This document shows positions 29,159-54,744 of a stretch of 64,000 bases of DNA, one piece after another (positions within the stretch are counted from its first letter, which is position 1; each line of letters starts with the position of its first letter). The translations under genes were made by a program, and so were the position numbers. The stretch is from Desulfobacterales bacterium (GTDB taxonomy: Bacteria; Desulfobacterota; Desulfobacteria; Desulfobacterales; JAHEIW01). The stretch covers positions 1-64,000 of the forward strand of contig JASJAN010000014.1 in the NCBI GenBank assembly GCA_030066985.1, read 5' to 3'. The notes under the pieces are model-generated. The model made no database searches, had not been told where the DNA came from, and saw nothing but the letters and a program-made list of their open reading frames with translations.

Positions 29159-30313
29159 TCAATCAGAGTCCCAGAACTTTCCCGCCGAAACCGATTTGTC
29201 ATAGCCTAAAATATCATCGACCCAGAGCAAAAACCGGTTGAAAGAGGGTGTTTTTTTTCGAACGAGAAGTCGAGAAAAGTCATGGATCTTGCCTGCTGGC
29301 TTATTAAATGGACACACACGGATACAGTTGGCACAATCTGAGCGGTTTTTGGCCCAAAAAGAAAAACACTTTTCAGCATCCACATACCACTTGTGGGTTC
29401 CAGATTGGTTCGAAATATTAGGACCTTCAGTTGTCATTACACCGTTCGGAATCGCCCGACTCGGGCAGTACTTGGCGCATTTTTTACATGTTTGGCAGAA
29501 CTCTGTTACGCCAAAAGGTCTGTAAGCGTCATAGCTGAGCGGCAGATCCGTAAACACTTTACATAGTCGAATACGAGGACCAAATTTTTCACTAATGATA
29601 AATCCCAGCCGCCCGGGCTCACCCAGACCGGCCGCCATGGCAAGCGGAACACTCAAAGCGGTATCATTGCCGCAGGGTATCGCGCGATAGCCAAGACCGC
29701 GTATAAATATGGATAATAAATTGGCGACAAAGGCCATCATCGAGTAACCCAATCCGACCTCAGCCCCTTGAATCGTGGTAGGAGATGTGCGAATTCTGTC
29801 ATAGTCCATAGCAATACCCAAAACAATTGCATTATGGCATCCATCGGGAAGTTCGATGGGATAATGTTCCCGGGTAACTGTATTATATTCGTGGGAGTAA
29901 ACCCAATTCGGATGAACCCGACAGATTCCAGTCAAATCAGCGCCAAAATAACGAGCGGCCTTTTTGATGATTCGGCTCATCTCTTCAGGCGATTCTTTGA
30001 TTGGCGTGCTGGAATCCAGATACGGCTTAATTTTTATGTTCCCGCCTTCCCAGGAATAGAGTCCTGAATTACTTCGTGAGTTGCCTAGTCCGAAGCCCCA
30101 CTCCAAATTCCAGGCGGCATTCTGCAGGGCATAGTCCATCTGTCGATAGCCGACTTTCTCCCTGAATTTAATATCGCGATAGAAGCGAAAACCGTGGGGC
30201 TTCATTTTCTCATCCCAGATGGATCTTTTGAACATCTCGTTTTTCTGATCAAATCGATCCAGTGGAGCAGCGAACGGCAAATCCAACGGGTATTGTTCAG
30301 ATACGGATGGCAT
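29159..30313 (-). CDS. RdhA-like reductive dehalogenase homologue without Tat signal
   Basis: The 384-residue product matches the RdhA core: AIVLGIAMDYDRI, MMAFVANLLSIFIRGLGYRA, MAAGLGEPGRLGFIISEKFGPRIRL, FTDLPL, then two 4Fe-4S motifs (Cys273, 276, 279, 283; and Cys316, 327, 330, 334, each ending CP). Such proteins bind a corrinoid and two iron-sulfur clusters and cut carbon-halogen bonds; many distant homologues have unknown substrates. It has no twin-arginine signal peptide and no small membrane-anchor RdhB gene beside it, so it should be cytoplasmic and not directly part of organohalide respiration. It lies downstream of the TRAP transporter on the same strand (102-base gap). Substrate unknown; queuosine reductase QueG, a distant relative, is less likely given the RdhA-type motifs. 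Confidence 0.82.
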   Translation of the reverse strand: MPSVSEQYPLDLPFAAPLDRFDQKNEMFKRSIWDEKMKPHGFRFYRDIKFREKVGYRQMDYALQNAAWNLEWGFGLGNSRSNSGLYSWEGGNIKIKPYLDSSTPIKESPEEMSRIIKKAARYFGADLTGICRVHPNWVYSHEYNTVTREHYPIELPDGCHNAIVLGIAMDYDRIRTSPTTIQGAEVGLGYSMMAFVANLLSIFIRGLGYRAIPCGNDTALSVPLAMAAGLGEPGRLGFIISEKFGPRIRLCKVFTDLPLSYDAYRPFGVTEFCQTCKKCAKYCPSRAIPNGVMTTEGPNISNQSGTHKWYVDAEKCFSFWAKNRSDCANCIRVCPFNKPAGKIHDFSRLLVRKKTPSFNRFLLWVDDILGYDKSVSAGKFWDSD

Positions 30314-30415: not shown

Positions 30416-31720
30416 TCAGCGCATAAGATTCGGTATGATCAATACAATTTGGGGGAACACAATTAAAATGATCGTGCAAACGATACACGCCAATAGGAAA
30501 AAGGACGCGCTCATGAATATGGTACCCAAATTTATTTCTGGCGCCAGCGCTTTGACCACAAAAATATTAACACCCACCGGCGGAGTGATCGCCCCCATAG
30601 TGGTAACCATGGTGATAATGATGGCAAACCAAATGGGATCAAATCCCAGCGCTTTTCCCAGCGGGAAAAAGATGGGGATGGTCAGCACCAGAAATCCAAG
30701 GGCGTCCACAAAACAGCCACCAATCAAATAAATCAATAATATAATTGCCAAAATGGCATATGGCGAGATTGGCAATGAAGCCGCAAAATCAGCCACAAGG
30801 AACGGAAGTCGTGTAATCGCCAAAAAGCGGCCAAAGATCAATGCGCCTGTGACAAGCATAAACGCCATGCAGGAGATTTTCAGGGTTTCTTTGAGTGAAT
30901 TGATCAGACCCTTTAAGGTTAGTTTGCGGGTGGGAAGCGTTACAATTAATGTCAGTAAAACACCAGCCGCACCCGCTTCAGTGGGGGTAAAGATACCGGC
31001 ATACAATCCCCCTATAACGAGCACAAAAATGGATAAAGCTTCCAAAACTCCGGAGAGCGATTTAAACTTTTCTTTGATACCCGTCTTGGGGCCGGCCGGT
31101 CCGAAATCGGGATTGATTCTGCACAAGATCACAATGGTAAGGACGAACAAAAATCCCAGGAGGATAGCCGGCAGTATACCGCCCAAAAAAAGCTTTATGA
31201 TGGATTGTTCAGTCTGCAAACCGATAATAATCAGCAAAACACTGGGCGGCATGACAGTTCCCAGGGTTCCACCAGTAACAACCGTCCCTGTGCTTAACCG
31301 CGTATCATAATTGTACTTTTTCATTTGCGGCAGCGCAATGGCCGCCATGGTTGCAGCTGTAGCAGTGTTGGATCCGCAAATAGCGGCAAAAAATTCGTCT
31401 GCGGCAATGGTGGCAATCGCCAGACCACCACGCCAGTGCCCCACCCATTTATATGCAGTATTGTAAAGCTTTTCAGCGATACCGGAATTAAACGCCAGAT
31501 ATCCCATCAAGATGAAAAGGGGGATAACCGTTAGACCGTACTTGGAAAAAGTACCCCAGACGTCCGTGCCGACCATTGCGAAAGCAGCTTTAAAAGATAC
31601 CAGATAGGCAAACCCGCAGAAACCCACAACAGCCATGGCAAAGCCCACCGGCATCCCCAAAAAGAACAATATCAAAAGCAGGATGACAATTCCGAGGATG
31701 CCGACAAGTTCAGGGCTCAT
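30416..31720 (-). CDS. dctM: TRAP transporter large permease
   Basis: DctM is the 12-helix import channel of tripartite ATP-independent periplasmic transporters, driven by an ion gradient. The 434-residue product is highly hydrophobic and carries GMPVGFAMAVVGF, FAAICGSNTATAATMAAIALPQM and TPPVGVNIFVVKALA, as usual in the family. The start at 31720 overlaps the end of dctQ by 11 bases, so the pair is translationally coupled. Last gene of a P-Q-M set. Confidence 0.93.
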   Translation of the reverse strand: MSPELVGILGIVILLLILFFLGMPVGFAMAVVGFCGFAYLVSFKAAFAMVGTDVWGTFSKYGLTVIPLFILMGYLAFNSGIAEKLYNTAYKWVGHWRGGLAIATIAADEFFAAICGSNTATAATMAAIALPQMKKYNYDTRLSTGTVVTGGTLGTVMPPSVLLIIIGLQTEQSIIKLFLGGILPAILLGFLFVLTIVILCRINPDFGPAGPKTGIKEKFKSLSGVLEALSIFVLVIGGLYAGIFTPTEAGAAGVLLTLIVTLPTRKLTLKGLINSLKETLKISCMAFMLVTGALIFGRFLAITRLPFLVADFAASLPISPYAILAIILLIYLIGGCFVDALGFLVLTIPIFFPLGKALGFDPIWFAIIITMVTTMGAITPPVGVNIFVVKALAPEINLGTIFMSASFFLLACIVCTIILIVFPQIVLIIPNLMR

Positions 31721-32219
31721 TGACCGTTCCCCTGATTTCCAATATGGATTTAAGAAAGTCCACAAAAAACGTAAACGCCAGAACTAAACATCCCAGGGCA
31801 ACGGCGTATGTGAACGGATAGTAGACGATTTGCAGTGTCTCGGTAACCTCCCCGGTTTCCCAGAGGGTAGTGGCGTATTTGAAAACCTGCCAGGTCACAA
31901 TTCCAAAGAAAAACATACAAATTAAATAATTCACCGCATTTAGGATTTTTTGGGTTTTCTTTGAAAATCGCAACACCACTATATCGACGGCGATGTGACT
32001 GCCTTTGCTTTGGGCATAAGCCAGAGCAAAAGCGGTTACGACCGCACCGAAGTATCCCATTAGTTCAAATGTGCCGCGAATGGGAAGCCAGAATAGTCGT
32101 ACAATAATGTTGGCGCCTGTTATGGTAATCATGGCGATTAAAAACAGGCCTGCTATCCATAAAAGTGCTTTATTCAGGAAACGGCTTAACTTTTCTAGCA
32201 CACCCATGGGTTCATCCAA
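31710..32219 (-). CDS. dctQ: TRAP transporter small permease
   Basis: The 169-residue product has four hydrophobic segments (ALLWIAGLFLIAMITITGANIIV; LMGYFGAVVTAFALAYA; LICMFFFGIVTWQVF; TYAVALGCLVLAFTFFV) and the SKGSHIAVDIV motif between helices, typical of DctQ. It pairs with DctM in the membrane. A second in-frame ATG at 32207 is also possible. The intergenic stretch to dctP is about 210 bases, with nothing recognised in it. Confidence 0.9.
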   Translation of the reverse strand: MDEPMGVLEKLSRFLNKALLWIAGLFLIAMITITGANIIVRLFWLPIRGTFELMGYFGAVVTAFALAYAQSKGSHIAVDIVVLRFSKKTQKILNAVNYLICMFFFGIVTWQVFKYATTLWETGEVTETLQIVYYPFTYAVALGCLVLAFTFFVDFLKSILEIRGTVNEP

Positions 32220-32428
32220 TTATCGTTAGATGATTTGCATGCAGCCTTCGCTGAAAAAGGGCTGATGTACCATGACAGCGACGTTCATCAAAACATACGG
32301 ACGCTCTCTCCACCACCCCCGCTGAGGCGAGCACTAAAGCCCGCCTCTATATGTATGGGTTGATGGTGTTCGTCGGCATGTACTCAGTAAAACGGGATTA
32401 CTTCATCCGCTATTTATATCCAACCGAT

Positions 32429-33448
32429 CTATTGATTTTTCTCCATAAAGGCCTTAATATCGGCCACGATAGCCTCTGCCGGATAACCTTTCTTTTTGGC
32501 ATCGGCAATCCAGCCGGTCATAATCGGATCAAGCAGACCGTTCCACTTCGCTTTTTGTTCTTTAGAAAGGGTGATCACTTCCACCCCCTGGGTTTTCTTT
32601 GACCATTCGACGGATTCGATGATGTGATTGTCCATGTAGTTGCCGGTCCATTCCGCATGTTCCCGCGCCATATCTGCCATTACTTTCTGGACGTCTTTTG
32701 GCAAAGAATTCCATTTGTCCAGGTTCATGACAACCGAGAAAGGATAGATGACCGCATCCGTCATGGTGACATATTTGCAAATCTCGGCAAATTTAAAATC
32801 TTTCATCACTTCCAGAGATGAAAACAGGCCTTTGACGACACCTTTCTGCAAGGCTTCAGGGGTCGCGGACATCGGCATACCGATCTGGTTGGCCCCCCAG
32901 GCTTTCAGGGTTTTGGCCGCACCGCCTGAGGCCCTCAAATCCAAACCGTTCAGATCAGCCAACGATCTGACTGGCACCTTGGACATGATATTGGAAGGAC
33001 CGGAGGTGTACATGCACAGAACCTTCACTTTTGCAAAAGATTTGGGTTGGTATTTGGAGTATAAATCCCAAAGTGTCAGGCTGGCCACACGCGCATTGGG
33101 AAATCCAAAAGGCAAGCTCGTCGCATTGGTTATCACAAAACGGCCCGGTTGATAGGCCATGACAAGCGTTCCAATATCAGCCGTACCGGCGATAACGCCA
33201 TCCATCATATTTTTGGCTCCCAGCAGCGTGCCACCGTGAAAGGCGTCGATCTTGACTTTGCCGCCGGTGCGCTTTTCCACTTCTGCGATCCATCTTTCTA
33301 GCTGCACCCCGACAAAGGTCTTTGCAGGCGCAAACTGGGCGTAACTTAACTTGATCGGTTCCGCCTGGGCAGAGGTCAGCATAAAGAAGCTAAAGACCAT
33401 AAACAATGCCATCATAAAACCAACGACAACGCGTAACTGCTTTTTCAT
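32429..33448 (-). CDS. dctP: TRAP transporter substrate-binding protein
   Basis: The 339-residue product is a periplasmic DctP-type receptor: signal peptide (MKKQLRVVVGFMMALFMVFSFFMLTSAQA), then a binding domain with WIAEVEKRTGGKVKIDAFHGGTL, DLNGLDLRASGG and the organic-acid-contacting region around VYPFSVVMNLDKWNSLP. The start at 33448 is set by a perfect AGGAGG upstream; longer readings run into the promoter region. It is the first gene of the P-Q-M set and lies just after the Mo-subunit gene. An acid made or used by the hydroxylase/CoA-ligase genes is a reasonable ligand, by inference. Confidence 0.93.
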   Translation of the reverse strand: MKKQLRVVVGFMMALFMVFSFFMLTSAQAEPIKLSYAQFAPAKTFVGVQLERWIAEVEKRTGGKVKIDAFHGGTLLGAKNMMDGVIAGTADIGTLVMAYQPGRFVITNATSLPFGFPNARVASLTLWDLYSKYQPKSFAKVKVLCMYTSGPSNIMSKVPVRSLADLNGLDLRASGGAAKTLKAWGANQIGMPMSATPEALQKGVVKGLFSSLEVMKDFKFAEICKYVTMTDAVIYPFSVVMNLDKWNSLPKDVQKVMADMAREHAEWTGNYMDNHIIESVEWSKKTQGVEVITLSKEQKAKWNGLLDPIMTGWIADAKKKGYPAEAIVADIKAFMEKNQ

Positions 33449-33536
33449 TTTTATACCCTCCTTTTTGCGTTTGGGTAATGATGTCCATTTCAAATGGCGC
33501 ATCTTACCAGCTACGAATAATTGATAGCGTAACCTT

Positions 33537-35864
33537 TTATTCTTCGATAATACAAGCGTCAGCATCATCACTTCCAATTTCCTGGCCGCAGGGGTCTAAA
33601 CCTTTCTTTTCCCTGATGGCAGCCAAAACCTTTTCGGGGGTAATCGGCAACTCGTTTATGCGCACCCCAACTGCATCGTAAATTGCATTGGCAATCGCCG
33701 GTGCGGTGGGCACACAGCCGGGTTCACCGATGCCCTTGGCGCCAAAAGGCCCGTCTTCATCATAGGTCTCAAGTACCGGCGCGTCGATAGGCACCACATC
33801 TTTGGCTGTCAATATTTTATAATCGCGAAAATTGGGGTTCATATTCTGCCCTTTATCGGAGATAACCTGCTCGGTGAGGGCATATCCCACACCCATCATT
33901 ACCCCACCGTACACCTGACCTTCAAGCAGCAATGGATTTATCGCCTTGCCAACGTCATGCGCGGCAACATACTGCAAAATATTAACTTTGCCGGTTTCCT
34001 CATCGACTTTGACCCGCACGCCATGAGTGCCGAAGGTGTAAGTCATCGACATATTGCCGCGGAAGTCCTTGCCCATGTTCTCATTGGCCGGATCGTAGAA
34101 ATGCTCAGCCATCAACATTTGCCCGCCGTGGCTAAAATGCGCTTTGCGTAAAACTTTGCCAATGGCCATCTTTTTCTCAGGATCATCCTTATGGACAATA
34201 TGGCGCCCCTGAAGGCTTAATTTTTCCAATGGTGATTCCAGCAATTTGGCTCCCATCTCCAGAATGCGGGCTTTGAGCTTGCGGGCAGCGCCTAAAGCGG
34301 CGTTTCCGGCGATGAAGGTCGTTCGGCTGGCATGTGATCCCACATCCCAGGGGCAGACATCGGTATCGGAGTGAATCACATGAATATCGTCAACTTCAAG
34401 ACCAAGCTCTTCGGCCACGATCTGGGCAACAACCGTATCGGATCCCTGCCCCATATCGGTGGCCCCGGTGAACAGATCGATTTTGCCGAAATCATCCATT
34501 TTAATCATTGTGCCGCAGCCGTCTGATTTATACACCCGTGCGCCACCGCCCACATGAATTAAAGAAGCCATCCCAATGCCTTCGCCGGGCTTTTTGGGCT
34601 GGTCCCATTGCAGTTTTTCTTGGACCGCTTGCATACATTCGGTCAGACCGCAGGTGGTAATACGCAGCCCCTGGGTGGATACATCACCGGACTGGTTGGC
34701 GTTGATGCGACGAAATTCGACCGGATCAATCCCGGCGGCTTCGGCCAGCATGTCGATCGTGCTTTCGATGGCATAGGTTGCCTGAGGATTTCCGTAGCCG
34801 CGCATCGCCTGGGCATAGGTGTTGTTGGTGTAAACGCATCTGGCTTCATATCGAACGTTGGGCACCCGATACAAGGTGCTGATCGGCATCATCATCACCG
34901 AGGGTGTTGTCGCTCCCCAGGAAGTATAGGCGCCGTTGTCGAGGATCATGGATATATCACGGAAAAGAAGTTTTCCGTTTTGATCGCAACCTTGAGAGAT
35001 ATGCGTAATGGTGGGTTGTCGCGTAGATGTCGCGATAAACTCTTCGGTACGGTCAAATTCGATCTTCACCGGTCTGCGGGTGTGGAAAGCCAGTAAAATA
35101 GCAACATATTCATAGGCATAGGTATCCAGTTTACTGCCGAACCCGCCGCCAATGCAGGGTTTTACGACCCGGACCCTGCGGTCACTGATGCCCATCGCTT
35201 TAAGGGCGTCCAAAAAATCCTTTTGGGCCAGCGACGGAATCTGGGTATTGGTGTGTATGGTCAGGTTATTGGCCGGATCAAATTCGGCGATGGCGCCGCT
35301 GGTGCCCATACAGCAATGGGTCACCCAGGTGGTCGTGAAGCGGTCTTCTACGGTATAGGCCGCTTCCTTCTTGGCAGCTTCCACATCGCCATAATGCAGT
35401 TTCCAGGGCATTTTTAAGATATTGGTCTTGTGGGCCTCATGAATCAACGGAGCGCCCTCTTGCATGGCCGCTTCCGGATCGAAAATGGCCGGCAGCGCTT
35501 CATAAGTAACCTCGATTCGATTTAACGCCGCTTCGGCGATATCCGGCGAAATGGCTGCCACGGCCGCCACTTCATCGCGAAAAGAGCACACTTTCTCTTT
35601 TTTGAGCGGCCGATTGTCCTTATAGACCCCCATGCGAATATCGGGAATATCGTCACCGGTTAAAACGGCCATAACACCGGGCAGCTCCCGGGCTTTGGAT
35701 GTATCAATTTTGACGATTTTGGCATGGGCATATTTGCTGTACAAAATTTTGCCATACAGCATTCCCGGCACCTTTAAATCCTGGATATATTGCACCCGCC
35801 CGGTGGCCTTATCGACCGCATCCAGCTTGGGCACTCTTTTGCCAACCGAACACAAATTCTGCAT
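33537..35864 (-). CDS. Molybdopterin-binding subunit of a xanthine-dehydrogenase-family hydroxylase
   Basis: The 775-residue product is the large subunit of a three-part molybdenum hydroxylase. It shows GGGFGSK (239-245), RGYGNPQATYAIE, the cofactor loop GATDMGQGSDTVV, and the C-terminal GAKGIGEPG with the catalytic-base candidate Glu714. There is no fused FAD or 2Fe-2S part, so it works with the two genes upstream on the same strand. Enzymes of this class hydroxylate N-heterocycles or, as 4-hydroxybenzoyl-CoA reductase, remove a ring hydroxyl; the substrate cannot be read from these motifs. Nearby yqeB and yqeC suggest an extra selenium ligand at the active site. The frame contains no in-frame TGA. 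Confidence 0.92.
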   Translation of the reverse strand: MQNLCSVGKRVPKLDAVDKATGRVQYIQDLKVPGMLYGKILYSKYAHAKIVKIDTSKARELPGVMAVLTGDDIPDIRMGVYKDNRPLKKEKVCSFRDEVAAVAAISPDIAEAALNRIEVTYEALPAIFDPEAAMQEGAPLIHEAHKTNILKMPWKLHYGDVEAAKKEAAYTVEDRFTTTWVTHCCMGTSGAIAEFDPANNLTIHTNTQIPSLAQKDFLDALKAMGISDRRVRVVKPCIGGGFGSKLDTYAYEYVAILLAFHTRRPVKIEFDRTEEFIATSTRQPTITHISQGCDQNGKLLFRDISMILDNGAYTSWGATTPSVMMMPISTLYRVPNVRYEARCVYTNNTYAQAMRGYGNPQATYAIESTIDMLAEAAGIDPVEFRRINANQSGDVSTQGLRITTCGLTECMQAVQEKLQWDQPKKPGEGIGMASLIHVGGGARVYKSDGCGTMIKMDDFGKIDLFTGATDMGQGSDTVVAQIVAEELGLEVDDIHVIHSDTDVCPWDVGSHASRTTFIAGNAALGAARKLKARILEMGAKLLESPLEKLSLQGRHIVHKDDPEKKMAIGKVLRKAHFSHGGQMLMAEHFYDPANENMGKDFRGNMSMTYTFGTHGVRVKVDEETGKVNILQYVAAHDVGKAINPLLLEGQVYGGVMMGVGYALTEQVISDKGQNMNPNFRDYKILTAKDVVPIDAPVLETYDEDGPFGAKGIGEPGCVPTAPAIANAIYDAVGVRINELPITPEKVLAAIREKKGLDPCGQEIGSDDADACIIEE

Positions 35865-35903
35865 CAGTTATACTCCTTACTTAATCGATGATTGAAATTA
35901 TAC

Positions 35904-36059
35904 AAAACTCGTTTTAAAGCCTCAGATTTTGTCCGATGGCTCGGCGCAATTCGTTTCAAAAGCGGAGCGTACACGGTAGTACGCGAGCATTTTGAAACGG
36001 ATTGTAATCCGCCCAAGGCGGACCATCGGGCAAAAGATGGGGTTTTAAAATGAGTTTTT
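35904..36059. repeat. Nested palindromes between hydroxylase subunit genes
   Basis: Outer imperfect arms AAAACTCGTTTTAAAGC and GGTTTTAAAATGAGTTTTT enclose middle arms CAATTCGTTTCAAAA (35947-35961) and TTTTGAAACGGATTG (35990-36004), and a core hairpin GCGTAC-acggta-GTACGC (35967-35984). The whole 150-base gap between the 2Fe-2S and Mo subunit genes can fold on itself, and its right arm touches the 2Fe-2S stop codon. Confidence 0.75.
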
Positions 36060-36579
36060 ATTCGCCGCGCTCACTTTCATCGGACCTAAAGGCCACCACA
36101 TGCGGTTGGTCATCTCCGTGACCGCTGACGGCTTTAATCGAATCGATGATTTGCACGTAGCCGGTACAGCGACAGAGATTGCCGGCAATTGCTTCCTTGA
36201 TGTCGTCTTCGGAAGCGTTGGGACTTTTATCCAACAGGGCTTTGGCCGACAGAATCATTCCCGGTGAACAAAATCCGCACTGGATGCCCCCCTTTTCGAC
36301 AAATGATTGTTGAATAGGATGCAGGGTTCCATCGGCGGCTGCCAATCCTTCAATGGTGGTTAATTGCTTGCCATCGATTTCAGCAGCCAGGTAAAGACAA
36401 GAATTAACGGCTTGGTCATCTATGATGACCGTACAAGCACCGCACTCACCGCTGCCGCATCCCTCTTTGGTGCCGGTATAACCGATCTCTTCTCGAATCA
36501 GATGCAATAGCGTCCAATGGTCTTGGATGACCATTTTCATCGGATTTCCATTAAACGTAAATGATATTTCCCTTGGCAT
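36058..36579 (-). CDS. 2Fe-2S subunit of the molybdenum hydroxylase
   Basis: The 173-residue product carries both clusters of this subunit family: a plant-ferredoxin type (Cys41, 46, 49, 61) and the helical type (Cys101, 104, 136, 138), with the motifs EGCGSGECGACTV, CGFCSPGM and LCRCTGY. It relays electrons from the Mo site to FAD. GGAG lies upstream of ATG 36579. It sits between the FAD and Mo subunit genes, separated from each by repeat-filled gaps. Confidence 0.95.
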   Translation of the reverse strand: MPREISFTFNGNPMKMVIQDHWTLLHLIREEIGYTGTKEGCGSGECGACTVIIDDQAVNSCLYLAAEIDGKQLTTIEGLAAADGTLHPIQQSFVEKGGIQCGFCSPGMILSAKALLDKSPNASEDDIKEAIAGNLCRCTGYVQIIDSIKAVSGHGDDQPHVVAFRSDESERGE

Positions 36580-36640
36580 TAAAAAATTCTCCTAATGTTC
36601 AGTTATTAGCGTTTAGAATAAGTGTTGTCACACACAACAT

Positions 36641-36730
36641 TTTTTTTACCACAGAGTTCGCAGAGAAATTTCTTAAATTTAGGAATTAAAAATAAAAACT
36701 CAGTGTTCTCTGTGTTCTCCGTGGTAAAAA
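36641..36730. repeat. ACCACAGAG-type inverted repeat
   Basis: Left arm TTTTTTTACCACAGAG (36641-36656) and right arm CTCTGTG...CTCCGTGGTAAAAA (36708-36730) are near-complementary. Read as protein, the right arm gives the pattern TTENTENTE, familiar from a widespread bacterial intergenic repeat. It fills the gap between the FAD and 2Fe-2S subunit genes. Confidence 0.75.
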
Positions 36731-36759
36731 TGTTTTTATCTTCATTCCGGATTCCGACT

Positions 36760-37650
36760 TCACACTTCTTTTTTATTTTCCTTCGCTCGTTCAAGCGCTT
36801 TGAGCCCCATACGCTTGACCAGCACCCCGACCATTTCCCGCCGGTACCAGGCCACACCGCGGATACTGTCGCGAACCTTGGATTCCTGACCAGCAATTCG
36901 CCCGGCTTCAGCCAGAGTGCTTTCATGCATGGTTTTTCCCTTCAAGTGTTTTTCGGCTTCCAGCGCCCTAAACGGTGTTGGGGCCGCCACACCCAGGCAA
37001 ATTCTGGCTTTGGCACAGGTGAGCATATCTTTTTCAAGACTCAGCAAAACACCCACCCCCAGCATCGGCAGCTCCATGGCTTCGCGTCGTCCGTGTTTGA
37101 TGTAAGCACTGCCAGTGCGCGGCAACGGCGGCGGAATGGCAATCTCAGTTAGTATTTCACCGGCTTCTAGATCACACTGTCCCGGGCCCAGAAAAAAGCG
37201 TCTGAGCTCAACCGTGCGCTGACCTTTGGCGCCATAGATGTTGGCTTTGGCATCCAGAGCGATCAAGGGAATGGCGCCATCAGCGGAGGGAACAGCGTTC
37301 ACCAGATTGCCGCCAATGGTGGCCACGTTGCGAATCTGCACGGACCCGATATTTTTAACCGCATCATGAATAATAGGATAGTGATGCTGTATCAGTTGCG
37401 ATGCTTCAATGGATCCGTGGGTGCAAAAGGCGCCAATATACAACTCGCCAGTTTCCTGGTTTAAAAAAGGGCGATCTTGTCCGATGATATGCTTCAGCGA
37501 AATCAGATACTCCGGTGCTAATTTGCCTTCTTTAACTTTCACCATCACATCGGTTCCCCCGGCAATATATTTGGCGCTTTCACCATGCGACACATGCAAC
37601 GATATGGCTTCATCCAGGGTTTTGGGGGTTAAATATGTAAACTGTTTCAT
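36760..37650 (-). CDS. FAD-binding subunit of the molybdenum hydroxylase
   Basis: The 296-residue product is a CoxM/XdhB-type flavoprotein: AKYIAGGTDVMVKVKEG and TIGGNLVNAVPSADGAIPL are the two FAD-contacting loops, and KHGRREAMELPMLGVGV opens the C-terminal domain. It passes electrons out of the enzyme. There is no 4Fe-4S insertion like that of 4-hydroxybenzoyl-CoA reductase beta subunits, which argues mildly against that enzyme. First of the three subunit genes in transcription order. Confidence 0.93.
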   Translation of the reverse strand: MKQFTYLTPKTLDEAISLHVSHGESAKYIAGGTDVMVKVKEGKLAPEYLISLKHIIGQDRPFLNQETGELYIGAFCTHGSIEASQLIQHHYPIIHDAVKNIGSVQIRNVATIGGNLVNAVPSADGAIPLIALDAKANIYGAKGQRTVELRRFFLGPGQCDLEAGEILTEIAIPPPLPRTGSAYIKHGRREAMELPMLGVGVLLSLEKDMLTCAKARICLGVAAPTPFRALEAEKHLKGKTMHESTLAEAGRIAGQESKVRDSIRGVAWYRREMVGVLVKRMGLKALERAKENKKEV

Positions 37651-37724: not shown

Positions 37725-38915
37725 CTATCCAACCTTGAGCACAATGGCGGCAGCCGTATCGCCGGCGGCACATCCTGCAAACAGCACATAACCGCCGCCT
37801 TTCATGGCCGCTTCTTCGATGCCTTCGATGATCAGGCGTCCGCCGGTGGGCCCTTGTGGATGACCAAAAATCAGAGAAGAACCGTAATTATTCATGCCGT
37901 TGACGTCAACACCCAAATTGTTGGCCAGGTGAATATCATTGGCTGCAAAAGGGTTGTGCGTTTTTATAATACTGACGTCATTGGCTCCGAGGTTGGCATT
38001 TTCAAGTGCCATCTGAACTGCCGGGAATACAGCGGCAGCCATAAAAGCCTTTTTCACGCGTGCATATCCATATGAAACAACCTGAACCGCAATGTTTGGA
38101 TCGGCACTGAGTTCTTTGGCCTTGTCCTGCGTCGTAACGGTGATACCGCAATTGCCGTCCGCAGGATGGGTCTGGGCGCCAAATGTATGCACGCCGTCAG
38201 GCAGCACCGGCCGCAGTTTGGCCAACCCTTCGGCGGTGGTTTCCATAACGCCTTCATCGGCTTCAAGCATAATGGTTTTCTTTCTGGAAACCTTGACTTC
38301 CACTGGAAACATATACCGTTTTTGAAAAGCGCGGTCGTCAGCCAGTGCATCCTGGTATTGCTCATAGCGGCGTAAGGCCACGGCATCGCATTGCTCTCTC
38401 GTAATCCCGGCTTCAGCAGCTACGTTTTCAGCGGTTTTAATCATGGCTTCGCCGGCCCAGGGATCTTTGTTAAAATTATCCATGACCCAATCTTCAGATG
38501 TGACCTGTCCACCCGGCCCCAGGGGATTCGGCCAGACCGCATGCGGACCATTTGAACAGCGATCGGTCATCAGACAAAACGGGGTCTGGTAAAGACCGGT
38601 TTCAACACCCACACTTGCCAAATAAACCGCAATGGTGGATGTCGAACAGGCCTGGCTCACATATATACCAGGCACGCCTTCAGCACCGGTCAGCGCAGCG
38701 GACCAGGGGCCCCCATAAAATGCATGCGGCTGGTGAACGGAAATACCCAAATAGGTATAATCGAATATTTTGGGATCCCATTTTTTCTGTTCGAGCCAGC
38801 GTTTGGCGGTGGCGGCTCCCAGCGTAATCGAATTGTCATTAGCCAGGGTGCCTTGCCAGCGCGAAAAAGGTGAGCTGTAGTACCCACCGTAAGGTATAAA
38901 GGCTTTTTGCAGCAT
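37725..38915 (-). CDS. Thiolase-family acyl-CoA acetyltransferase
   Basis: The 396-residue product has the thiolase active-site residues: Cys90 in VSQACSTST, the GHPQGPTGGR His loop and Cys in LFAGCAAGDTAAA. Thiolases cleave 3-ketoacyl-CoA with CoA, so it probably makes the final cut of the pathway encoded around it. The N-terminal half is unlike standard FadA (no typical GRTP start), placing it in a divergent branch. TAGGAGGGATTTGAA precedes the start. It follows the CoA-ligase gene with a 194-base repeat-rich gap. Confidence 0.88.
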   Translation of the reverse strand: MLQKAFIPYGGYYSSPFSRWQGTLANDNSITLGAATAKRWLEQKKWDPKIFDYTYLGISVHQPHAFYGGPWSAALTGAEGVPGIYVSQACSTSTIAVYLASVGVETGLYQTPFCLMTDRCSNGPHAVWPNPLGPGGQVTSEDWVMDNFNKDPWAGEAMIKTAENVAAEAGITREQCDAVALRRYEQYQDALADDRAFQKRYMFPVEVKVSRKKTIMLEADEGVMETTAEGLAKLRPVLPDGVHTFGAQTHPADGNCGITVTTQDKAKELSADPNIAVQVVSYGYARVKKAFMAAAVFPAVQMALENANLGANDVSIIKTHNPFAANDIHLANNLGVDVNGMNNYGSSLIFGHPQGPTGGRLIIEGIEEAAMKGGGYVLFAGCAAGDTAAAIVLKVG

Positions 38916-39109: not shown

Positions 39110-40402
39110 CTAATCAAGGCGATTGTCAAAAAACCGCTTAGATTTGCGCTCCGATCTTGGCAGCGAACAATATTCAACGACATCGACCTCACAGCTGACC
39201 ATAATCTTATTTTTAATCTCAGCTTGAACCTTTTTGGCAAGTTCTGACTTGCGCGAAGCCTCAAAACCATCGCAGCACTCCAGCCGAACGGTCATATAGT
39301 CTTTGCCATCCTCACCGCGGTCGAGGTGCACCTGGTATTCGCAGCTGGCTTCCGGTATGGTTGAAAGAACCTCGTCGACTTGACCGGGATAGATGTTAAC
39401 TGCGCGAAATATGATCATGTCGTCTGAACGCCCCAAGATTCTATCATGCATTGGCAAAACGCTGCCGCAGGAACATGGGTCATCAATCAGGCGTGTCAGA
39501 TCGCGGGTGCGATAGCGGATGAGTGGCGTGGCTTCTTTGCAAAGGGTTGTAACAACCATTTCTCCGATTTCACCGGGAGCAACCGGCTTCAGTGTATTTG
39601 GATCCAGGATTTCCAAAAGATAATAGTCCGCCCAATAGTGAATGCCTTCGTGATGCTGACAATCCAGACCAGTACCGGGCCCATATAGCTCCGTCATGCC
39701 GGTAATATCAAACATATCCTCCAGACCCAACAATTCTGTGATGCGGGCACGCATGGCATCACTGCTGCGCTCGGAACCAAATATCATTTTCTTCAGCGCA
39801 ATTTTATCTTTCAGTCCCCGGCTATTAACTTCTTCAGCCATCAGCAGGCCCATTGAAGCGGTGCAGCACATGACAGTGGACTGCAGATCCACCAGAAACT
39901 GACATTGCATATCCACATTTCCGGGACCCACCGGAAGCGCCATGGCACCAAATTTTTCGCATCCCAGCTGAAAACTGATCCCCGCTGTCCATACCCCGTA
40001 CCCAACGGCTATCTGCACGCGATCTTCTGCGCTCAGCCCGGCCATTTGATAGCAGCGGGCAAAAAAATGCGTCCAATCGTCGATGTCTTTCTGGGTATAG
40101 GCCAGAATTTTGCGTTTGCCGGTGGTACCGGATGATGCGTGTATTCGAACCACTTCTGATACAGGCACGGAAAGCAGCGGAAAAGGATACCCCTGGCGCA
40201 AATCATCGGCAGTCGTAAAGGGCAATTTTCGGATGTCATCCAGGGAATGGATGTTTTCCGGCTGAATGCCGGCATCATCGAGCCGTTGGCGATAAAACTC
40301 AGAGCCTCGGTAAGCATGCGCAAGAGTCCAGTGCAGGCCTCTGAGCTGGTGTTCCTTAAGCGCTTCGGCATCTTTAAAAGAAGGCATGAAGGTTTTTGCC
40401 AT
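39110..40402 (-). CDS. Phenylacetate-CoA-ligase-family enzyme
   Basis: The 430-residue product is of normal length for PaaK. It has the AMP-binding loop SSGTTGKRK (90-98), TELYGPGTGLDC, YRTRDLTRL and GRSDDMIIFRAVNIYPGQVDEVL. PaaK-type ligases activate aryl-acetates and related acids with ATP and CoA. It begins the thiolase/ligase part of the minus-strand cluster, and GGAGACAGATA lies upstream of the start. The true acid is unknown; phenylacetate is only one option, and indole- or heteroaryl-acetates are others. Confidence 0.9.
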   Translation of the reverse strand: MAKTFMPSFKDAEALKEHQLRGLHWTLAHAYRGSEFYRQRLDDAGIQPENIHSLDDIRKLPFTTADDLRQGYPFPLLSVPVSEVVRIHASSGTTGKRKILAYTQKDIDDWTHFFARCYQMAGLSAEDRVQIAVGYGVWTAGISFQLGCEKFGAMALPVGPGNVDMQCQFLVDLQSTVMCCTASMGLLMAEEVNSRGLKDKIALKKMIFGSERSSDAMRARITELLGLEDMFDITGMTELYGPGTGLDCQHHEGIHYWADYYLLEILDPNTLKPVAPGEIGEMVVTTLCKEATPLIRYRTRDLTRLIDDPCSCGSVLPMHDRILGRSDDMIIFRAVNIYPGQVDEVLSTIPEASCEYQVHLDRGEDGKDYMTVRLECCDGFEASRKSELAKKVQAEIKNKIMVSCEVDVVEYCSLPRSERKSKRFFDNRLD

Positions 40403-40511: not shown

Positions 40512-42239
40512 TTATCCACCGCCCTTGCGCTGCTCTCTGAGTTTTTGCGTTTTCTCCACATCAACTTCAAGCGTTTTCGGATCGATGACTACACCGTAAT
40601 CTGCCAGCGCCCGCTCTACGCTGACATATTCGTTGCGAACATCCCGGGCGACTGCCTGCGGATCTCTGTCCAGCGCTTCACCATACCCCCCGCCACCGGC
40701 ACTGATAAATTGAATCATATCGCCGGACTCACACAACGTCAGCCCGCTGGAGTCGCCGTCTTTATCGTTAACGATAAATTGGGCTTTGTTGGCAGCATCG
40801 CCATTAAAGAGGCCACCGGGCGGATAACGGTATCGACCGGCCTGAATGGCGATGGAAGTTGGCGCTTGGGGCGCCAATTCATCGTCTGGTACCCGGATGA
40901 CAAATTTTCTGCCCAGACCGCCCCGCATCTTACCAGGCCCACCGGAATCACATAACAGACTGCGCTCTTTGACCATCAGCGGGGTGTCGCTTTCAAAGAT
41001 TTCAACAGGGGTGTTGGCGCCATTTGCTGGAAAAATTGCGCAGTGGTGACCATCCATTTTACTGCTGGCGCCCATACCGCCACCCCGAATGATCATGGTC
41101 AGCCAGGAATTTCCGTTGTGCCGTTTGCCGTAAAAAATATTGGTCTGAGCCGGCGTTCCGCCGCTCTCGGCAATAATGTTGTCAGGGGTCGCTTTGGCCA
41201 GAGCTTTGAACACCATTTCGGTCATGAAATGACCAATTTGCATCCGGGCAGCCACAGCAGCCGGAAATTTGCAATTGACCACACTGCCCTCCGGTGCTGT
41301 CATCTTAACCGGGCGGATCGCGCCTTCATTGATGGGGATATCCGGATCAAAAGCGCTTTTAACCGCCATAAATACATAGGCAAAGGTAAAATTGTAAACC
41401 ACATTGCCGCCCCAATCGACCTGGGGCGATGTCCCGCCGAAATCAATATTTATATCGCTGCCCTTGACTTCGACTTTCAGTTTGACATCAATATCTTTAC
41501 GCTGACCAGCACCTTCAATAATGCCTTCATAGGGATAAACGCCATCCGGGATTTTGCTGATGGCGGCCCGCATGCTGGCTTCAGTGCGATCGATGATTTC
41601 GTCTGCCAGATCATCGAGTGTCTCCAGGCCTTCATCGTCCAGCATCTCGACAACTTTTTGGGCGCACACATGATTGGCGGCCACCTGGGAGCGAATATCC
41701 CCAGTGACCTCTTCTGGAGTGCGAACATTCCAGCGAATCATATTCAACACCGGTTCGTTCAGCACACCGGCATCATACAACTTAATTAAAGGGATAAACA
41801 ATCCCTCTTCAAAAACCTGCCGGTTATCAGACGCCACTCGGCCACCGATGTCTGAATGATGAAAAACACAGGCGGTAAATGCCACCGGGCGCTTCTTGTA
41901 GAAAATGGGGCTCAAGACGCAGACATCATTGAGATGACCCGCCAACAGCCAGGGATCGTTAACAATAAAAACATCGCCCGGTTGGTATTGTTCCAGGGGA
42001 ATTGAATTGATGATGGATTTAACCCCCAGCGCCATTGCCCCGGCCTGGCCGGGTGTGCAAAAGGTTCCCTGAACCAGTTCTTGTCCCCGGCTGTCGGTAA
42101 ACATACAGGTATAATCATGGGCATCGCGCAACAGGCTTGAGAATGCCGTGCGGGCAACCGAAGCATCGGCTTCATCGACAATCGAAATGAGCCGGCGCCA
42201 CAAAATTTCCAATGTAATCGGGTCAAACTTCGAAGGCAT
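40512..42239 (-). CDS. hyuB: Hydantoinase/oxoprolinase subunit B family protein
   Basis: The 575-residue product is HyuB-like: FDPITLEILWRRLISIVDEADASVARTAFSSLLRDAHDYTCMFTD, VNDPWLLAGHLNDV, FTACVFHHSDIGG and a long C-terminal region with GGGGYG. With HyuA it forms ATP-dependent enzymes that open cyclic amides (5-oxoproline, hydantoins, lactams) or carboxylate ketones such as acetophenone. The start at 42239 has GAGGA upstream; the longer open frame before it runs through repeat sequence. The substrate is not predictable; context suggests a ring-opening or carboxylation step before the B12 mutase. Confidence 0.9.
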   Translation of the reverse strand: MPSKFDPITLEILWRRLISIVDEADASVARTAFSSLLRDAHDYTCMFTDSRGQELVQGTFCTPGQAGAMALGVKSIINSIPLEQYQPGDVFIVNDPWLLAGHLNDVCVLSPIFYKKRPVAFTACVFHHSDIGGRVASDNRQVFEEGLFIPLIKLYDAGVLNEPVLNMIRWNVRTPEEVTGDIRSQVAANHVCAQKVVEMLDDEGLETLDDLADEIIDRTEASMRAAISKIPDGVYPYEGIIEGAGQRKDIDVKLKVEVKGSDINIDFGGTSPQVDWGGNVVYNFTFAYVFMAVKSAFDPDIPINEGAIRPVKMTAPEGSVVNCKFPAAVAARMQIGHFMTEMVFKALAKATPDNIIAESGGTPAQTNIFYGKRHNGNSWLTMIIRGGGMGASSKMDGHHCAIFPANGANTPVEIFESDTPLMVKERSLLCDSGGPGKMRGGLGRKFVIRVPDDELAPQAPTSIAIQAGRYRYPPGGLFNGDAANKAQFIVNDKDGDSSGLTLCESGDMIQFISAGGGGYGEALDRDPQAVARDVRNEYVSVERALADYGVVIDPKTLEVDVEKTQKLREQRKGGG

Positions 42240-42299
42240 TGTCACACCATCCTCGCTAAATTTCTTTGCGGCTGTAACGATTCTGCCTGTATGACTGAT

Positions 42300-42375
42300 A
42301 ACTTCTTTTAGACAGGATCTACAGGATTTTCTGGATATTCTATTTTTCCTGGCTTTCCAGATGAAAGCCAGGAAA
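42300..42375. repeat. AGACAGGATCTACAGGATT repeat followed by a strong hairpin
   Basis: AGACAGGATCTACAGGATT (42310-42328) is a repeat type seen across many genomes. It is followed by perfect 13-bp arms TTTCCTGGCTTTC (42345-42357) and GAAAGCCAGGAAA (42363-42375) with a 5-base loop. There is no clear U-tract on either strand, so it is more likely an mRNA-stabilising or attenuating hairpin than a terminator. Confidence 0.65.
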
Positions 42376-42452
42376 CCCAATCAGCCTGCAGCTGAAAGCA
42401 ACCTAAAATATTTATAGTATATATAACAATAATTTACGTTCAATTTATTCGT

Positions 42453-44633
42453 TTAAAACTTTAATGTATTGTAGTTCATTTTAGTTTTGGAACTATTTTC
42501 TTCCAACCTCTGTCCTCTGACATCTGACCTCTGGTATCTGTCTTCTGCGACCAAATCGATCCACACAAAACCGTGTTCATCAACAGAGGCTTTGGCGTCT
42601 TCTCCGACAATAATCGTTGATTCCTTTTCTTCGATAATCGCCGGCCCGTTGAATGCCGCACCCGGAAATAGCTTAAAACGATCAAAAACCGTAAAGGGAA
42701 TGTATTCTTTTTGGGTTAAAGAAAAAGCTCTGCGTTCGCCTTTGATGCAATCGTTAATTGATGTCGCCGTATGCTGCAAGGCCGGAATCCGAAAGGGTCG
42801 TTCCGGCAAACTGGCGCGGACTTTAAAGGTTACAAATTCAACCGGTGTGTCCGGATATGTGCGCCCGTATAATTTTTGATAAACATCATCAAATCGCTCT
42901 CGAATCTGGCTTTTATTCCATTGATCAAAAGGTCGGGCATCGATGTGCAGGTCAGTTTCAGCACCCTGCCCTACGAATCGCATCATCAAGGTACGTTCAA
43001 AGGTAATTTTTTGATTCTTGCCGGCCTGCTCAAGAATGGCGGCACCTTCGGTCTCCAGTTTTTTAAACAACCGCTCAATTTGTTCAAAATCGGCGTCCTC
43101 GAGGGTCTCACGGTGGCTGCGGGTCAAATCAAAGGCTACCGGGGCCGTAAAAAACCCAAGCGCGGAGCCAACGCCGGCCAGAGGTGGCACCAGTATGCGG
43201 GGCGCACCGATCTTTTTTGCCAGACCATAGGCGTGCACCGGTCCGGCGCCGCCGAAAGCCGAAATCGTAACGATATTCGGATTACCGCCCTTTTCGGCAA
43301 TATGGGTTTTGGCGGCTGCTGCCATGGTTTCGTTGATCAGGTCATGAATACCAAACGCAGCTGCGGTTACCCCGGTTTCAAGGGGTTTGGCCACTTTTTC
43401 TTCGATGGCCTTTTCGGCCAAGGCTTTATCCAGCAGCATGCTACCACCCAGAAAATAGTTCGGATCCAGATATCCCAGCACCAGGTCGGCATCGGTCACC
43501 GTTGGGTTTTGACCGCCGCGGGCATAACAGGCCGGTCCGGGATCAGCACCGGCACTTTCCGGTCCTACTTGCAGCAGGCCCATTTTGCTCATGTGGGCAA
43601 TGCTGCCGCCGCCGGCGCCGATTTCCATCAAATCTACCACCGGTACCTGAATGGGCAAACCGCTGCCTTTTTTAAACCGCTGAACGCGACCGACCTCAAA
43701 TGTCGACACCAGTCCTGCCTGTCCTTTTTGAATCAGACAGGATTTGGCGGTGGTGCCGCCCATATCAAAACAAAACATGTCCTTGATCTGAAACATTTTG
43801 CCGTAATGCTGCGAGGCAATTACCGCGGCTGTCGGCCCGGATTCTATGATTCTAACCGGATATTTGCGAGCGGTTTCCACCGAGGTAATGCCGCCGCTGG
43901 ATAGCATGATAAACAATTTGCCTTTAAAGCCGAGCGCTTCTAATCGTGCAGACAACTTGGCCAGATAGTTTGCTGTAATGGGCTTGACATAGGCATTGGT
44001 GGCAGTGGTACATGTTCGCTCATATTCCCGGATCTGCGGCAACACCTCGCAAGAAGTTGACAGCGATAATTCAGGCGCTTTTTGGGTCACAATTTCTTTG
44101 ATCTGAATCTCGTGGGTCGGATTCTCATAAGAATTAATCAAACAGACCGCCAGCGATTCGATGCCGGCATCACACAGCTCAGAAACGAGATCGCTGACTT
44201 CTTCAGGATCGAGCTTTACCAGAACGCGGCCGTCAGCTGTAATGCGCTCGGAAACCTCCCGGCGGTAGGGGCGCGGCACCAGCGGCTCCGGATATTCGGC
44301 AAATATATCATAGGCGTCATATCGAATTTCGCGGCCGAGCTCTAAAATGTCCCGGAATCCCTGGGTGGTCAACAGGGCTGTTTTAGCACCTTTGCGCTCA
44401 ATGATGGCATTAATTACCAGGGTGGTACCGTGGATAATCTCATCAACATGGGGCATAAATCCCGGTACACGCTCCAGTAAACCCCGGATACCCGCTTCCA
44501 CTGCATCAGATGGATCTGCAGGTGTTGTCAGGCATTTATTGATCTGAAACTCACCGCTTTTATCATCGACCAACACAAAATCAGTAAAAGTGCCGCCAAT
44601 GTCACATCCTAGTCGATAGGCGCCGTTTCCCAC
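42453..44633 (-). CDS. hyuA: Hydantoinase/oxoprolinase subunit A family protein
   Basis: The 726-residue product is HyuA-like: LGCDIGGTFTDFVLVDD (actin-like phosphate loop), HGTTLVINAIIERKGAKTALLTT, MGGTTAKSCLI, and GGAGPVHAYGLAKKIG. It supplies the ATPase half of HyuAB enzymes. It starts with GTG, 12 bases after the mutase stop codon, with AGGAG between, so it is tightly coupled to the acyl-CoA mutase large subunit. The last 25 or so residues (around YQRSDVRGQRLEEN) are encoded by a GATGTCAGAGGTCAGAGG-type dispersed repeat, so the original C-terminus has been replaced or extended by repeat sequence. Confidence 0.9.
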   Translation of the reverse strand: MGNGAYRLGCDIGGTFTDFVLVDDKSGEFQINKCLTTPADPSDAVEAGIRGLLERVPGFMPHVDEIIHGTTLVINAIIERKGAKTALLTTQGFRDILELGREIRYDAYDIFAEYPEPLVPRPYRREVSERITADGRVLVKLDPEEVSDLVSELCDAGIESLAVCLINSYENPTHEIQIKEIVTQKAPELSLSTSCEVLPQIREYERTCTTATNAYVKPITANYLAKLSARLEALGFKGKLFIMLSSGGITSVETARKYPVRIIESGPTAAVIASQHYGKMFQIKDMFCFDMGGTTAKSCLIQKGQAGLVSTFEVGRVQRFKKGSGLPIQVPVVDLMEIGAGGGSIAHMSKMGLLQVGPESAGADPGPACYARGGQNPTVTDADLVLGYLDPNYFLGGSMLLDKALAEKAIEEKVAKPLETGVTAAAFGIHDLINETMAAAAKTHIAEKGGNPNIVTISAFGGAGPVHAYGLAKKIGAPRILVPPLAGVGSALGFFTAPVAFDLTRSHRETLEDADFEQIERLFKKLETEGAAILEQAGKNQKITFERTLMMRFVGQGAETDLHIDARPFDQWNKSQIRERFDDVYQKLYGRTYPDTPVEFVTFKVRASLPERPFRIPALQHTATSINDCIKGERRAFSLTQKEYIPFTVFDRFKLFPGAAFNGPAIIEEKESTIIVGEDAKASVDEHGFVWIDLVAEDRYQRSDVRGQRLEENSSKTKMNYNTLKF

Positions 44634-46450: not shown

Positions 46451-46852
46451 TTATTTAATGACTTGATTTATGCCACCCACGATCTGATCAAAAGGTGTTC
46501 CTCCCGGAAAAACACCGGCAATACCCAAGTCGTTCAATTTGGGTATATCCTGTTTGGGAATGACACCGCCGACAACGACCGGAATATCCTGAATTCCTTC
46601 TGCTTTCATCAACTCCAGAAGTTTCTGACAGATCGGCAGGTGCGCGCCGGACATAATACTCAACCCAACCACATCAACCGCTTCCTGCACGGCTGCTCTG
46701 ACAATCTGTTCAACTGTCTGATGCAGCCCAGTATAAATAACCTCCATGCCGGCATCTCTTAGTGCCAAAGCCGTCACCTTGGCCCCACGATCATGTCCGT
46801 CCAATCCAGGCTTTCCGATGAGTACCTTTGTTTTTTTTGCGGTCATATCCAT
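46451..46852 (-). CDS. B12-binding small subunit of the acyl-CoA mutase
   Basis: The 133-residue product is a stand-alone cobalamin-binding domain: LDGHDRG (DxHxxG with lower-ligand His20), LSIMSGAH and VVVGGVIPKQD. It holds adenosylcobalamin for the large subunit encoded downstream. AAAGGG lies upstream of ATG 46852. Split mutases of this kind include isobutyryl-CoA, 2-hydroxyisobutyryl-CoA and some archaeal-type methylmalonyl-CoA mutases, so the split layout alone does not tell the substrate. Confidence 0.93.
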   Translation of the reverse strand: MDMTAKKTKVLIGKPGLDGHDRGAKVTALALRDAGMEVIYTGLHQTVEQIVRAAVQEAVDVVGLSIMSGAHLPICQKLLELMKAEGIQDIPVVVGGVIPKQDIPKLNDLGIAGVFPGGTPFDQIVGGINQVIK

Positions 46853-48860: not shown

Positions 48861-48950
48861 GGTCCTCTCCATTAGCAAAGTTGGGGTCAGTGTTTGTGAG
48901 GCCGATGGTCCCGGTGTCTCCGGAGACCTAAGGTGTGGATTCAACAGGTT

Positions 48951-48982
48951 TTTGTATACGGTATACAAAGTACAAATGTCAA
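48951..48982 (-). promoter_or_regulatory. Promoter with overlapping palindromic operator, site A
   Basis: On the minus strand TTGACA (48977-48982) and TATACA (48953-48958) are 18 bases apart, a near-consensus sigma-70 promoter pointing to the CoA-transferase gene. The perfect palindrome TTTGTATACGGTATACAAA (48951-48969) covers the -10 box and part of the spacer, so a bound dimer would block polymerase. Confidence 0.75.
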
Positions 48983-49063
48983 GAAGTGTTTTGTGCCGCA
49001 ATAAAATTTTCTGGCCCACAAAGGGTTGATTTGAGACACTGAAAAGCCTAAATAAAACCCGAT

Positions 49064-54573: not shown

Positions 54574-54744
54574 AGATGACCTCCAATCTCTGATAATACC
54601 TATATCGATCACAAAAATCGATGCAAGACTCACTGGTTATAGTGAATGCTTGACCGACAATCAACCCATTTTGAACCAGCGATTTTCAACGGATGCGGGA
54701 GTGTTGCCTGCTCTCATGATGGTTTTCTTTGCAAAAGGAAATAA

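Follow-up and report, generated by a model that had tools for sequence, protein, structure and literature searches.

A short Tat-less reductive dehalogenase closes an indoleacetate-type gene cluster in a member of the Desulfobacterales

Here, we describe an open reading frame (29159-30313, minus strand, 384 aa, ATG start) that is a reductive dehalogenase (RDH) by sequence identity, predicted fold and active-site residues, as shown by computation. It lies at the end of a gene cluster of the indoleacetate (iaa) type, directly behind the genes of a TRAP importer, and is missing from the same cluster in two congeners. We propose, with a probability of roughly 0.5, that this RDH is a cytoplasmic catabolic enzyme which would dehalogenate imported halo-arylacetates for the indoleacetate-type route. 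The window, i.e. the whole stretch of DNA that was analysed, comprises 64,000 nucleotides of a Desulfobacterales bacterium with a draft genome of 81 contigs.

The NCBIfam model for reductive dehalogenases (TIGR02486) gives the encoded protein 216 bits, well above its cutoff of 160.35. In contrast, the QueG model (TIGR00276) reaches only 53.2 bits with a cutoff of 200, and the Pfam entry Dehalogenase (PF13486) stays with 22.9 bits slightly below its cutoff of 24.3. The first-pass annotation had reported the core RdhA sequence marks together with both 4Fe-4S motifs (Cys273-283 and Cys316-334), and this agrees with the passed TIGR02486 model and with the complete sets Cys273/276/279/283 and Cys316/327/330/334, all eight cysteines being invariant in 32/32 aligned sequences (the window protein and 31 out of 41 related loci). 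Alignment to PceA equates Tyr190, Asn216 and Arg249 with PceA Tyr246, Asn272 and Arg305; in the same 32 sequences the tyrosine and the asparagine are invariant (32/32 each) and the arginine is kept in 31/32. The catalytic set of NpRdhA is Tyr/Lys/Arg, and the residue pattern of the window RDH is PceA-like. In the excerpted text of PMC6737245 the three PceA residues are described as highly conserved active-site residues. Substitutions in comparison with four relatives pile up at the third codon position (0.56-0.60 vs 0.12-0.30 at positions 1 and 2), with synonymous sites saturated or nearly so, and because of this concentration the gene is judged to be under constraint.

The AlphaFold model of the protein (mean pLDDT 91.3, pTM 0.91) finds its best VIA-align match in 8q4h (Z 46.1, rmsd 2.3 over 372), followed by PceA of Sulfurospirillum multivorans (Z 40.5-41.6), NpRdhA (Z 35.3-35.8) and QueG (Z 15.1-16.1); Foldseek ranks these matches in the same order. 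The identity to solved PceA-type enzymes in the structural alignments amounts to 35-38%. A quick tree with 56 rows puts the window RDH in a clade of 16 short RDHs, here called clade A (SH-aLRT 99), with locus L016 (69%) as its nearest neighbour. The split of the two QueG rows has an SH-aLRT of 99, and BhbA/Ruegeria form a branch separate from the window clade; several rows of this tree sit on long branches, and the deep order of the RDH groups is weakly fixed. The first-pass annotation had named membership in the QueG clade as one outcome that would speak against its assignment. Such a placement did not occur, and a QueG identity is ruled out by the TIGR00276 score (53.2 vs 200 bits), the tree and the structural Z of 15-16. 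The phylogeny it had suggested thus sets the window clade apart from QueG as well as from the fused catabolic RDHs, of which two examples (BhbA/NpRdhA type) have 1070-1071 aa compared with 384 aa in the window. As to the corrinoid pocket, the loss of which was the other outcome named there, the model keeps the fold of corrinoid enzymes (Z 40-46 to PceA-type RdhAs) and retains Tyr190, Asn216 and Arg249; a corrinoid is presumably bound.

The cytoplasmic placement put forward in the first-pass annotation fits all tests. The first 80 residues are free of RR, and since only four codons lie between the upstream in-frame stop and the ATG, a hidden N-terminal signal is impossible and a Tat signal masked by a mis-called start is ruled out. 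The sole hydrophobic stretch (residues 186-204) lies inside a helix of the modelled core and not in an N-terminal membrane segment. A membrane anchor gene is also lacking: a hydropathy scan of 27.0-32.4 kb detected no RdhB-like ORF, with rdhB taken, after the excerpts of PMC3939436, as an adjacent gene for less than 150 aa with two to three membrane segments. Among the ORFs of 45-200 aa in this interval, several hydrophobic segments are found only in DctQ, a TRAP subunit. Neither of the two hallmarks of respiratory RdhAs, the Tat signal and the adjacent rdhB, is thus present.

The designation “orphan” holds for the lack of RdhB and fails in the sense of a sole RDH, as the genome contains two more RDHs, namely L002 with a Tat motif and L003 with N-terminal membrane helices (both by eye), and also five matches of lower significance (E 4e-7 to 5e-4). 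The L003 protein fits the hybrid type described in the excerpts of PMC6797604. In the family of the window organism six out of nine other RDH loci (L003, L010-L014) have a PaaK-like ligase in the fetched flank, 27-29% identical to that of the window, and this pairing may hint at the substrate of these RDHs; N-terminal membrane helices, seen by eye, occur in five of the six (not L010), similar to published hybrid RDHs. A scan for the Tat pattern in the 60 residues ahead of the core found the motif in 2/54 RDH ORFs, which is a lower bound because the L002 motif seen by eye was missed by the pattern. Both hits come from L051, a 9.8-kb contig from Peptococcaceae which carries at least three RDH genes; these two have the Tat motif.

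All genes of the cluster are located on the minus strand. In the direction of reading it contains a class III (CaiB-type) CoA-transferase (47670-49019; NF052585, 167.9 bits), a GntR-family regulator (46900-47607; by eye), the B12-binding small subunit (46451-46852; TIGR00640, 145.3 bits) and the large subunit (44646-46280; TIGR00641, 557.7 bits) of a B12-dependent acyl-CoA mutase, the HyuA-type (42453-44633; NF050156, 548 bits) and HyuB-type (40512-42380; NF050157, 266.8 bits) subunits of a lactamase/hydantoinase, an arylacetate-CoA ligase-like protein of the PaaK family (39110-40402; TIGR02155, 391.4 bits) and a thiolase-family protein (37725-38915; TIGR01930, 172.8 bits). A Mo-hydroxylase follows with its FAD subunit (36760-37650; NF043083, 246 bits), [2Fe-2S] subunit (36058-36579; NF043084, 192.7 bits) and large subunit of the xanthine dehydrogenase / 4-hydroxybenzoyl-CoA reductase family (33537-35864; TIGR03194, 624.7 bits). 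In this NCBIfam scan of ten cluster proteins only the two mutase parts exceed their cutoffs; the thiolase-family protein stays below its cutoff and the others below their equivalog cutoffs, and all of these are assigned at family level. The TRAP importer consists of the solute-binding protein DctP (32429-33577; family by eye), the small permease DctQ (31710-32219; hydrophobic segments) and the large permease DctM (30416-31765; family by eye and DctM cluster).

The RDH gene closes this row on the same strand, 102 bp after dctM. A solute importer and a molybdenum hydroxylase had been noticed beside the RDH before, and the TRAP genes (30416-33577) and the three-subunit Mo-hydroxylase (33537-37650) indeed adjoin it upstream on the same strand. 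A terminator scan, which is weak evidence, revealed no terminator-like site in the gap between dctM and the RDH gene. The RDH gene is presumably co-transcribed with the TRAP genes and the cluster. No halogen-specific gene was recognised by eye near the RDH. The source genome encodes CobS, and B12 is used in it by the mutase. On the other side, the window contains at 24972-29129 genes resembling YqeB, YqeC and MocA (by eye), kept beside the cluster in the congeners G005 and G003; they are possible maturation factors of the Mo-hydroxylase. Farther away, at 10220-12583, a sigma-70-like factor (by eye) is encoded with an unusually long repetitive N-terminal stretch, its first 225 residues consisting to 80% of Lys, Ala, Arg and Thr.

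At family level the cluster comprises the set of iaa operons, namely CoA ligase, HyuAB-type lactamase, CoA-transferase and two-part B12 mutase, and most of it recurs in other Desulfobacterota. According to the reading of the match list, HyuA orthologues with at least 64% identity are present in 50/395 genomes of this phylum, own included. Around these, 20 regions were fetched, mostly of the best matches and representing 20 of the 49 other genomes with an orthologue; several of the regions stop at contig ends. They contain HyuB (20/20), the ligase (19/20), a Mo-hydroxylase subunit (18/20), the mutase (17/20), GntR (12/20), a TRAP gene with at least 45% identity (8/20) and CaiB (7/20), and an RDH in none (0/20). 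An acyl-CoA dehydrogenase is found in 8/20 regions in nine copies, all of which (9/9) carry GGG instead of YEG; the remaining 12/20 gave no dehydrogenase match. In the excerpts of PMC8360864 GGG is the hallmark of IaaF, which acts as benzylmalonyl-CoA dehydrogenase in indoleacetate degradation. Since related regions carry such GGG dehydrogenases, predicted iaa operons are among the members of the family to which the window cluster belongs. With two dehydrogenases as queries, no IaaF was detected in the own genome, where ten acyl-CoA dehydrogenase loci lack GGG, and the best match in five genomes of the family reached only 36%. The classification as a canonical iaa operon was therefore not accepted, and the cluster is called iaa-type. 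Next to it, at 53776-57764, the window encodes enoyl-CoA hydratase-like, carboxyltransferase-like (54831) and acyl-CoA dehydrogenase (56616; YEG, not GGG) proteins. The genes at 54831 and 56616 also stay beside the cluster in G005, and their products perhaps split the IaaF reaction in two and replace the missing enzyme, which is a guess.

DctP matches at 1e-90 occur in 90/395 genomes (89 besides the own). Among 29 other DctP loci listed, 19 lie beside an iaa-type gene or IorAB, or 17 if IorAB is not counted (two have IorAB alone). An RDH was seen near DctP in 1/29 of these other listed loci, with a flank of about 1.5 kb from which an RDH behind DctM could escape. A synteny of RDH and iaa-type genes conserved throughout the phylum is thus rejected (0/20 cluster regions and 1/29 other listed DctP loci). 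In L193 and L197, from two genomes of the taxonomic order to which the window organism belongs, IorAB directly precedes an iaa-type DctPQM, and this arrangement supports a link of this TRAP group to aryl- or indole-pyruvate.

The congeners G005 and G003 offer a direct comparison. Their cluster keeps the gene order of the window between CaiB and the MFS gene, yet DctM is followed directly by MocA with no RDH in between. In the other genomes of the family the contig ends inside the cluster (G004) or no TRAP follows theirs (G001, G002). The catalytic genes of window and congeners are 85-95% identical, whereas the TRAP genes drop to 67-68% (DctP), 58-59% (DctQ) and 76-77% (DctM), compared with 93%, 85% and 95% between the two congeners. 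Genes beyond MocA show 71-81% in all pairs of these genomes, and therefore the low identity there is not specific to the window while the TRAP contrast is. At the border of XdhL and DctP, i.e. at the start of DctP, DNA identity falls from about 84-86% to 70-72%. In quick trees DctM (SH-aLRT 97) and DctP (SH-aLRT 100) of the window group with the iaa-type TRAP of G298, a genome of another family, and not with the congeners; DctQ is equally far from both (59% and 58-59%) and shows no preference. The G+C content of the TRAP-RDH block (0.44-0.48) differs from that of the listed catalytic genes (0.51-0.52), but this is weak evidence because the block does not deviate from the mean of the whole window (0.477). 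Judged from these sequence comparisons, the TRAP genes were probably replaced and the RDH gained by transfer, and both may have arrived in one event. As the two congeners already differ from each other in MocA (66%), this gene is only a possible part of the swapped block. With an iaa-type cluster and an apparently replaced importer, the surroundings of the RDH are more specific than the first-pass annotation had recognised.

Matches to the window RDH at 1e-70 are found in 16/395 genomes, own included. When their positions were compared with those of the best DctP matches, an RDH match on the contig of an iaa-type TRAP was found only in the window and in G304. There, contig C21 (3,756 bases) shows in a row a partial iaa-type GntR gene (52%), a Tat-less RDH (42%), an iaa-type DctP (63%) and a partial DctQ (46%). 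The RDH tree does not include the G304 protein, relatives of which exist in 14/395 genomes. At L017, a clade-A RDH comes directly after HyuA and HyuB (36% and 30% to those of the window), an AMP-dependent ligase (by eye) and an IaaF-type dehydrogenase with GGG that is 67% identical to the copy of L146; L021 contains HyuAB, a ligase and an RDH. Clade-A relatives occur in many other contexts as well. Short RDHs come after TRAP or ABC importers at L019, L022, L028, L038, L047, L055, L080, L092 and L093, and importer genes show a modest enrichment near RDHs (26/180 near vs 13/183 far; Fisher p=0.028), with an imperfect control, since the far genes are from the same contigs and some from the same clusters. 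A general rule that a short RDH has an importer as partner therefore receives only weak support. On a Dehalococcoidia contig (L035, 4325-15461) a short RDH lies near genes resembling 2-hydroxyacyl-CoA dehydratase/benzoyl-CoA reductase (by eye) and a Mo-hydroxylase.

For the proposed catabolic dehalogenation we infer the electron donor, reaction, substrate and order of steps as follows. The TRAP importer would take an aromatic carboxylic acid into the cell, where a soluble, cytoplasmic RDH, dependent on corrinoid and two [4Fe-4S] clusters, would be reduced by a low-potential donor such as ferredoxin, with electrons coming for example from an IorAB-like pair (57899-60463; by eye). The enzyme would then exchange a ring halogen (probably Br or Cl) for hydrogen, with the free acid or its CoA ester as substrate. 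Activation of the product by the PaaK-like ligase, hydroxylation of the ring to an oxo-lactam by the Mo-hydroxylase and ATP-dependent lactam opening by HyuAB would follow, and CoA transfer, the B12-dependent mutase and thiolysis would complete the route. The likeliest substrates would be halogenated indole-3-acetate or related arylacetates. Brominated or chlorinated indoles are marine natural products. Brominated indoles in particular are known from marine animals (PMC6266195 and PMC6627171). A wider reading, which we hold only tentatively and against the odds, regards TRAP and cytoplasmic RDH as a mobile “halogen-removal cassette” for indoleacetate-type operons, extending the catabolism of auxin and the tryptophan side chain to brominated or chlorinated indoles. 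If it were true, an RDH would be wired by gene order, and not by mere co-occurrence in a genome, into an anaerobic pathway of N-heteroaromatic compounds.

Among the alternatives, a dehalogenase for some other haloaromatic compound (e.g., a halophenol or halobenzoate) that landed by the cluster with no metabolic link to it has to be taken seriously, doubtful as it seems to us. It would account well for the absence of an RDH from all 20 related clusters and for clade-A RDHs that elsewhere lie beside ABC importers and other genes, and the order TRAP-RDH also occurs outside iaa-type clusters (L019, L047, L092 and, by the neighbour search, L038). It explains less well that the adjoining TRAP belongs to the iaa-type group and that G304 and L017 independently link an RDH to iaa-type genes.

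Two further explanations concern the reaction itself and its purpose. The RDH scaffold could serve a reduction other than dehalogenation, e.g. of a pathway intermediate that is bound to CoA or contains an N-heterocycle; QueG shows that other reductions exist in the superfamily, the protein shares only 35-38% identity with solved PceA-type enzymes and no gene specific for halogens was spotted nearby. Congeners that have the same cluster without the RDH indicate that the step is not obligatory, and the Tyr/Asn/Arg triad of PceA is intact, which makes this use of the scaffold unlikely. Even less probable is a respiratory role in the cytoplasm, in which a membrane partner encoded at another site would supply the electrons, or a role in the re-oxidation of cofactors. 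Re-oxidation is among the options in the excerpts of PMC4959651, and the best structural match, 8q4h with Z 46.1, is the RdhA of a menaquinol:organohalide oxidoreductase. Nevertheless, Tat signal, N-terminal membrane segment and nearby RdhB-like gene are all absent and the neighbourhood is catabolic, so that the catabolic rather than respiratory role already assumed in the first-pass annotation fits the tests.

Sea-floor metagenomes often contain Tat-less RdhA genes (excerpts of PMC3939436). For one such gene the locus points to a concrete class of substrates, namely halogenated indole- or aryl-acetates, and supplies an importer as well as a pathway further downstream. Congeners that possess this cluster with another version of the importer and no RDH provide a natural comparison. 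If the catabolic dehalogenation of halo-arylacetates is right, anaerobes of this phylum would feed on natural organohalogens besides respiring them, with consequences for carbon and bromine cycling in sediments. A gene cluster would then also back a proposal that was made for Asgard archaea from genome content (PMC6737245, in excerpts).

The class to which the enzyme appears to belong is not new. Tat-less rdhA genes, mostly without rdhB, are known from marine Dehalococcoidia, Desulfobacula, relatives of Desulfatiglans and subseafloor metagenomes, and a catabolic dehalogenation was already suggested for them (excerpts of PMC4959651, PMC6129605 and PMC3939436). Like the window RDH, the proteins of DEH-C11 (marine Dehalococcoidia), Desulfobacula toluolica Tol2 and Smkt (PMC4959651, PMC3939436) and of marine Desulfatiglans single-cell genomes (SAGs; PMC6129605) have no Tat signal, no or rarely an rdhB and both Fe-S motifs, and they come from sediment anaerobes; unlike in the window, the excerpted accounts name neither an indoleacetate-type cluster nor the replacement of an importer. 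A second clade of the tree, clade B, which contains Desulfobacula and Dehalococcoidia rows, may be the DEH-C11/Tol2 clade, with the window in clade A. The respiratory RdhAs possess a Tat signal and an RdhB anchor (PMC6797604, in excerpts), and the window RDH has neither of them; the closest fold is nevertheless that of PceA of Sulfurospirillum multivorans and the 8q4h RdhA (Z 40-46), PceA sharing also the Tyr/Asn/Arg triad. BhbA of Comamonas 7D-2 and NpRdhA are cytoplasmic and catabolic (excerpts of PMC6797604 and PMC4959651), as proposed here. BhbA adjoins a transporter binding protein in the way the window RDH adjoins TRAP, but with 1071 aa it has further domains absent from the 384-aa protein and a separate branch, and NpRdhA is structurally farther away (Z 35.3-35.8 vs 40-46 for the PceA type).

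With the iaa operon of Aromatoleum aromaticum (PMC8360864; lactamase PMC5214803) the window cluster shares CoA ligase, lactamase, CoA-transferase, two-part B12 mutase and solute-binding protein, and it differs in that no GGG-type IaaF was found in the cluster or the genome; the excerpts of both papers do not mention an RDH. Ferroglobus placidus has an RDH according to excerpts of PMC6737245 and a predicted iaa operon according to those of PMC8360864. We found no description of an RDH in an indoleacetate cluster in the open-licence literature, and the nearest account is PMC6737245, in the excerpts of which Tat-less RDHs of Asgard archaea are proposed, from genome content, to remove chlorine from derivatives of aromatic amino acids before these enter a pathway of the arylacetate type. 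These enzymes of Loki- and Thorarchaeota resemble the window RDH in lacking Tat signal and B protein, in having PceA as nearest characterised relative and in the same Tyr/Arg/Asn triad. In contrast, RDH and pathway merely co-occur in the Asgard genomes, the neighbours of the Lokiarchaeota RDH being arginyl-tRNA synthetase, agmatinase and deoxyhypusine synthase, while the window RDH adjoins importer and cluster. Both the Tat-less and RdhB-less RdhA class with a suggested catabolic role and the idea of a dehalogenation that feeds arylacetate pathways are thus already in print; new, as far as the open-licence literature shows, is that gene order ties an RDH to a cluster of the indoleacetate type, and so is the comparison of this cluster with that of the congeners.
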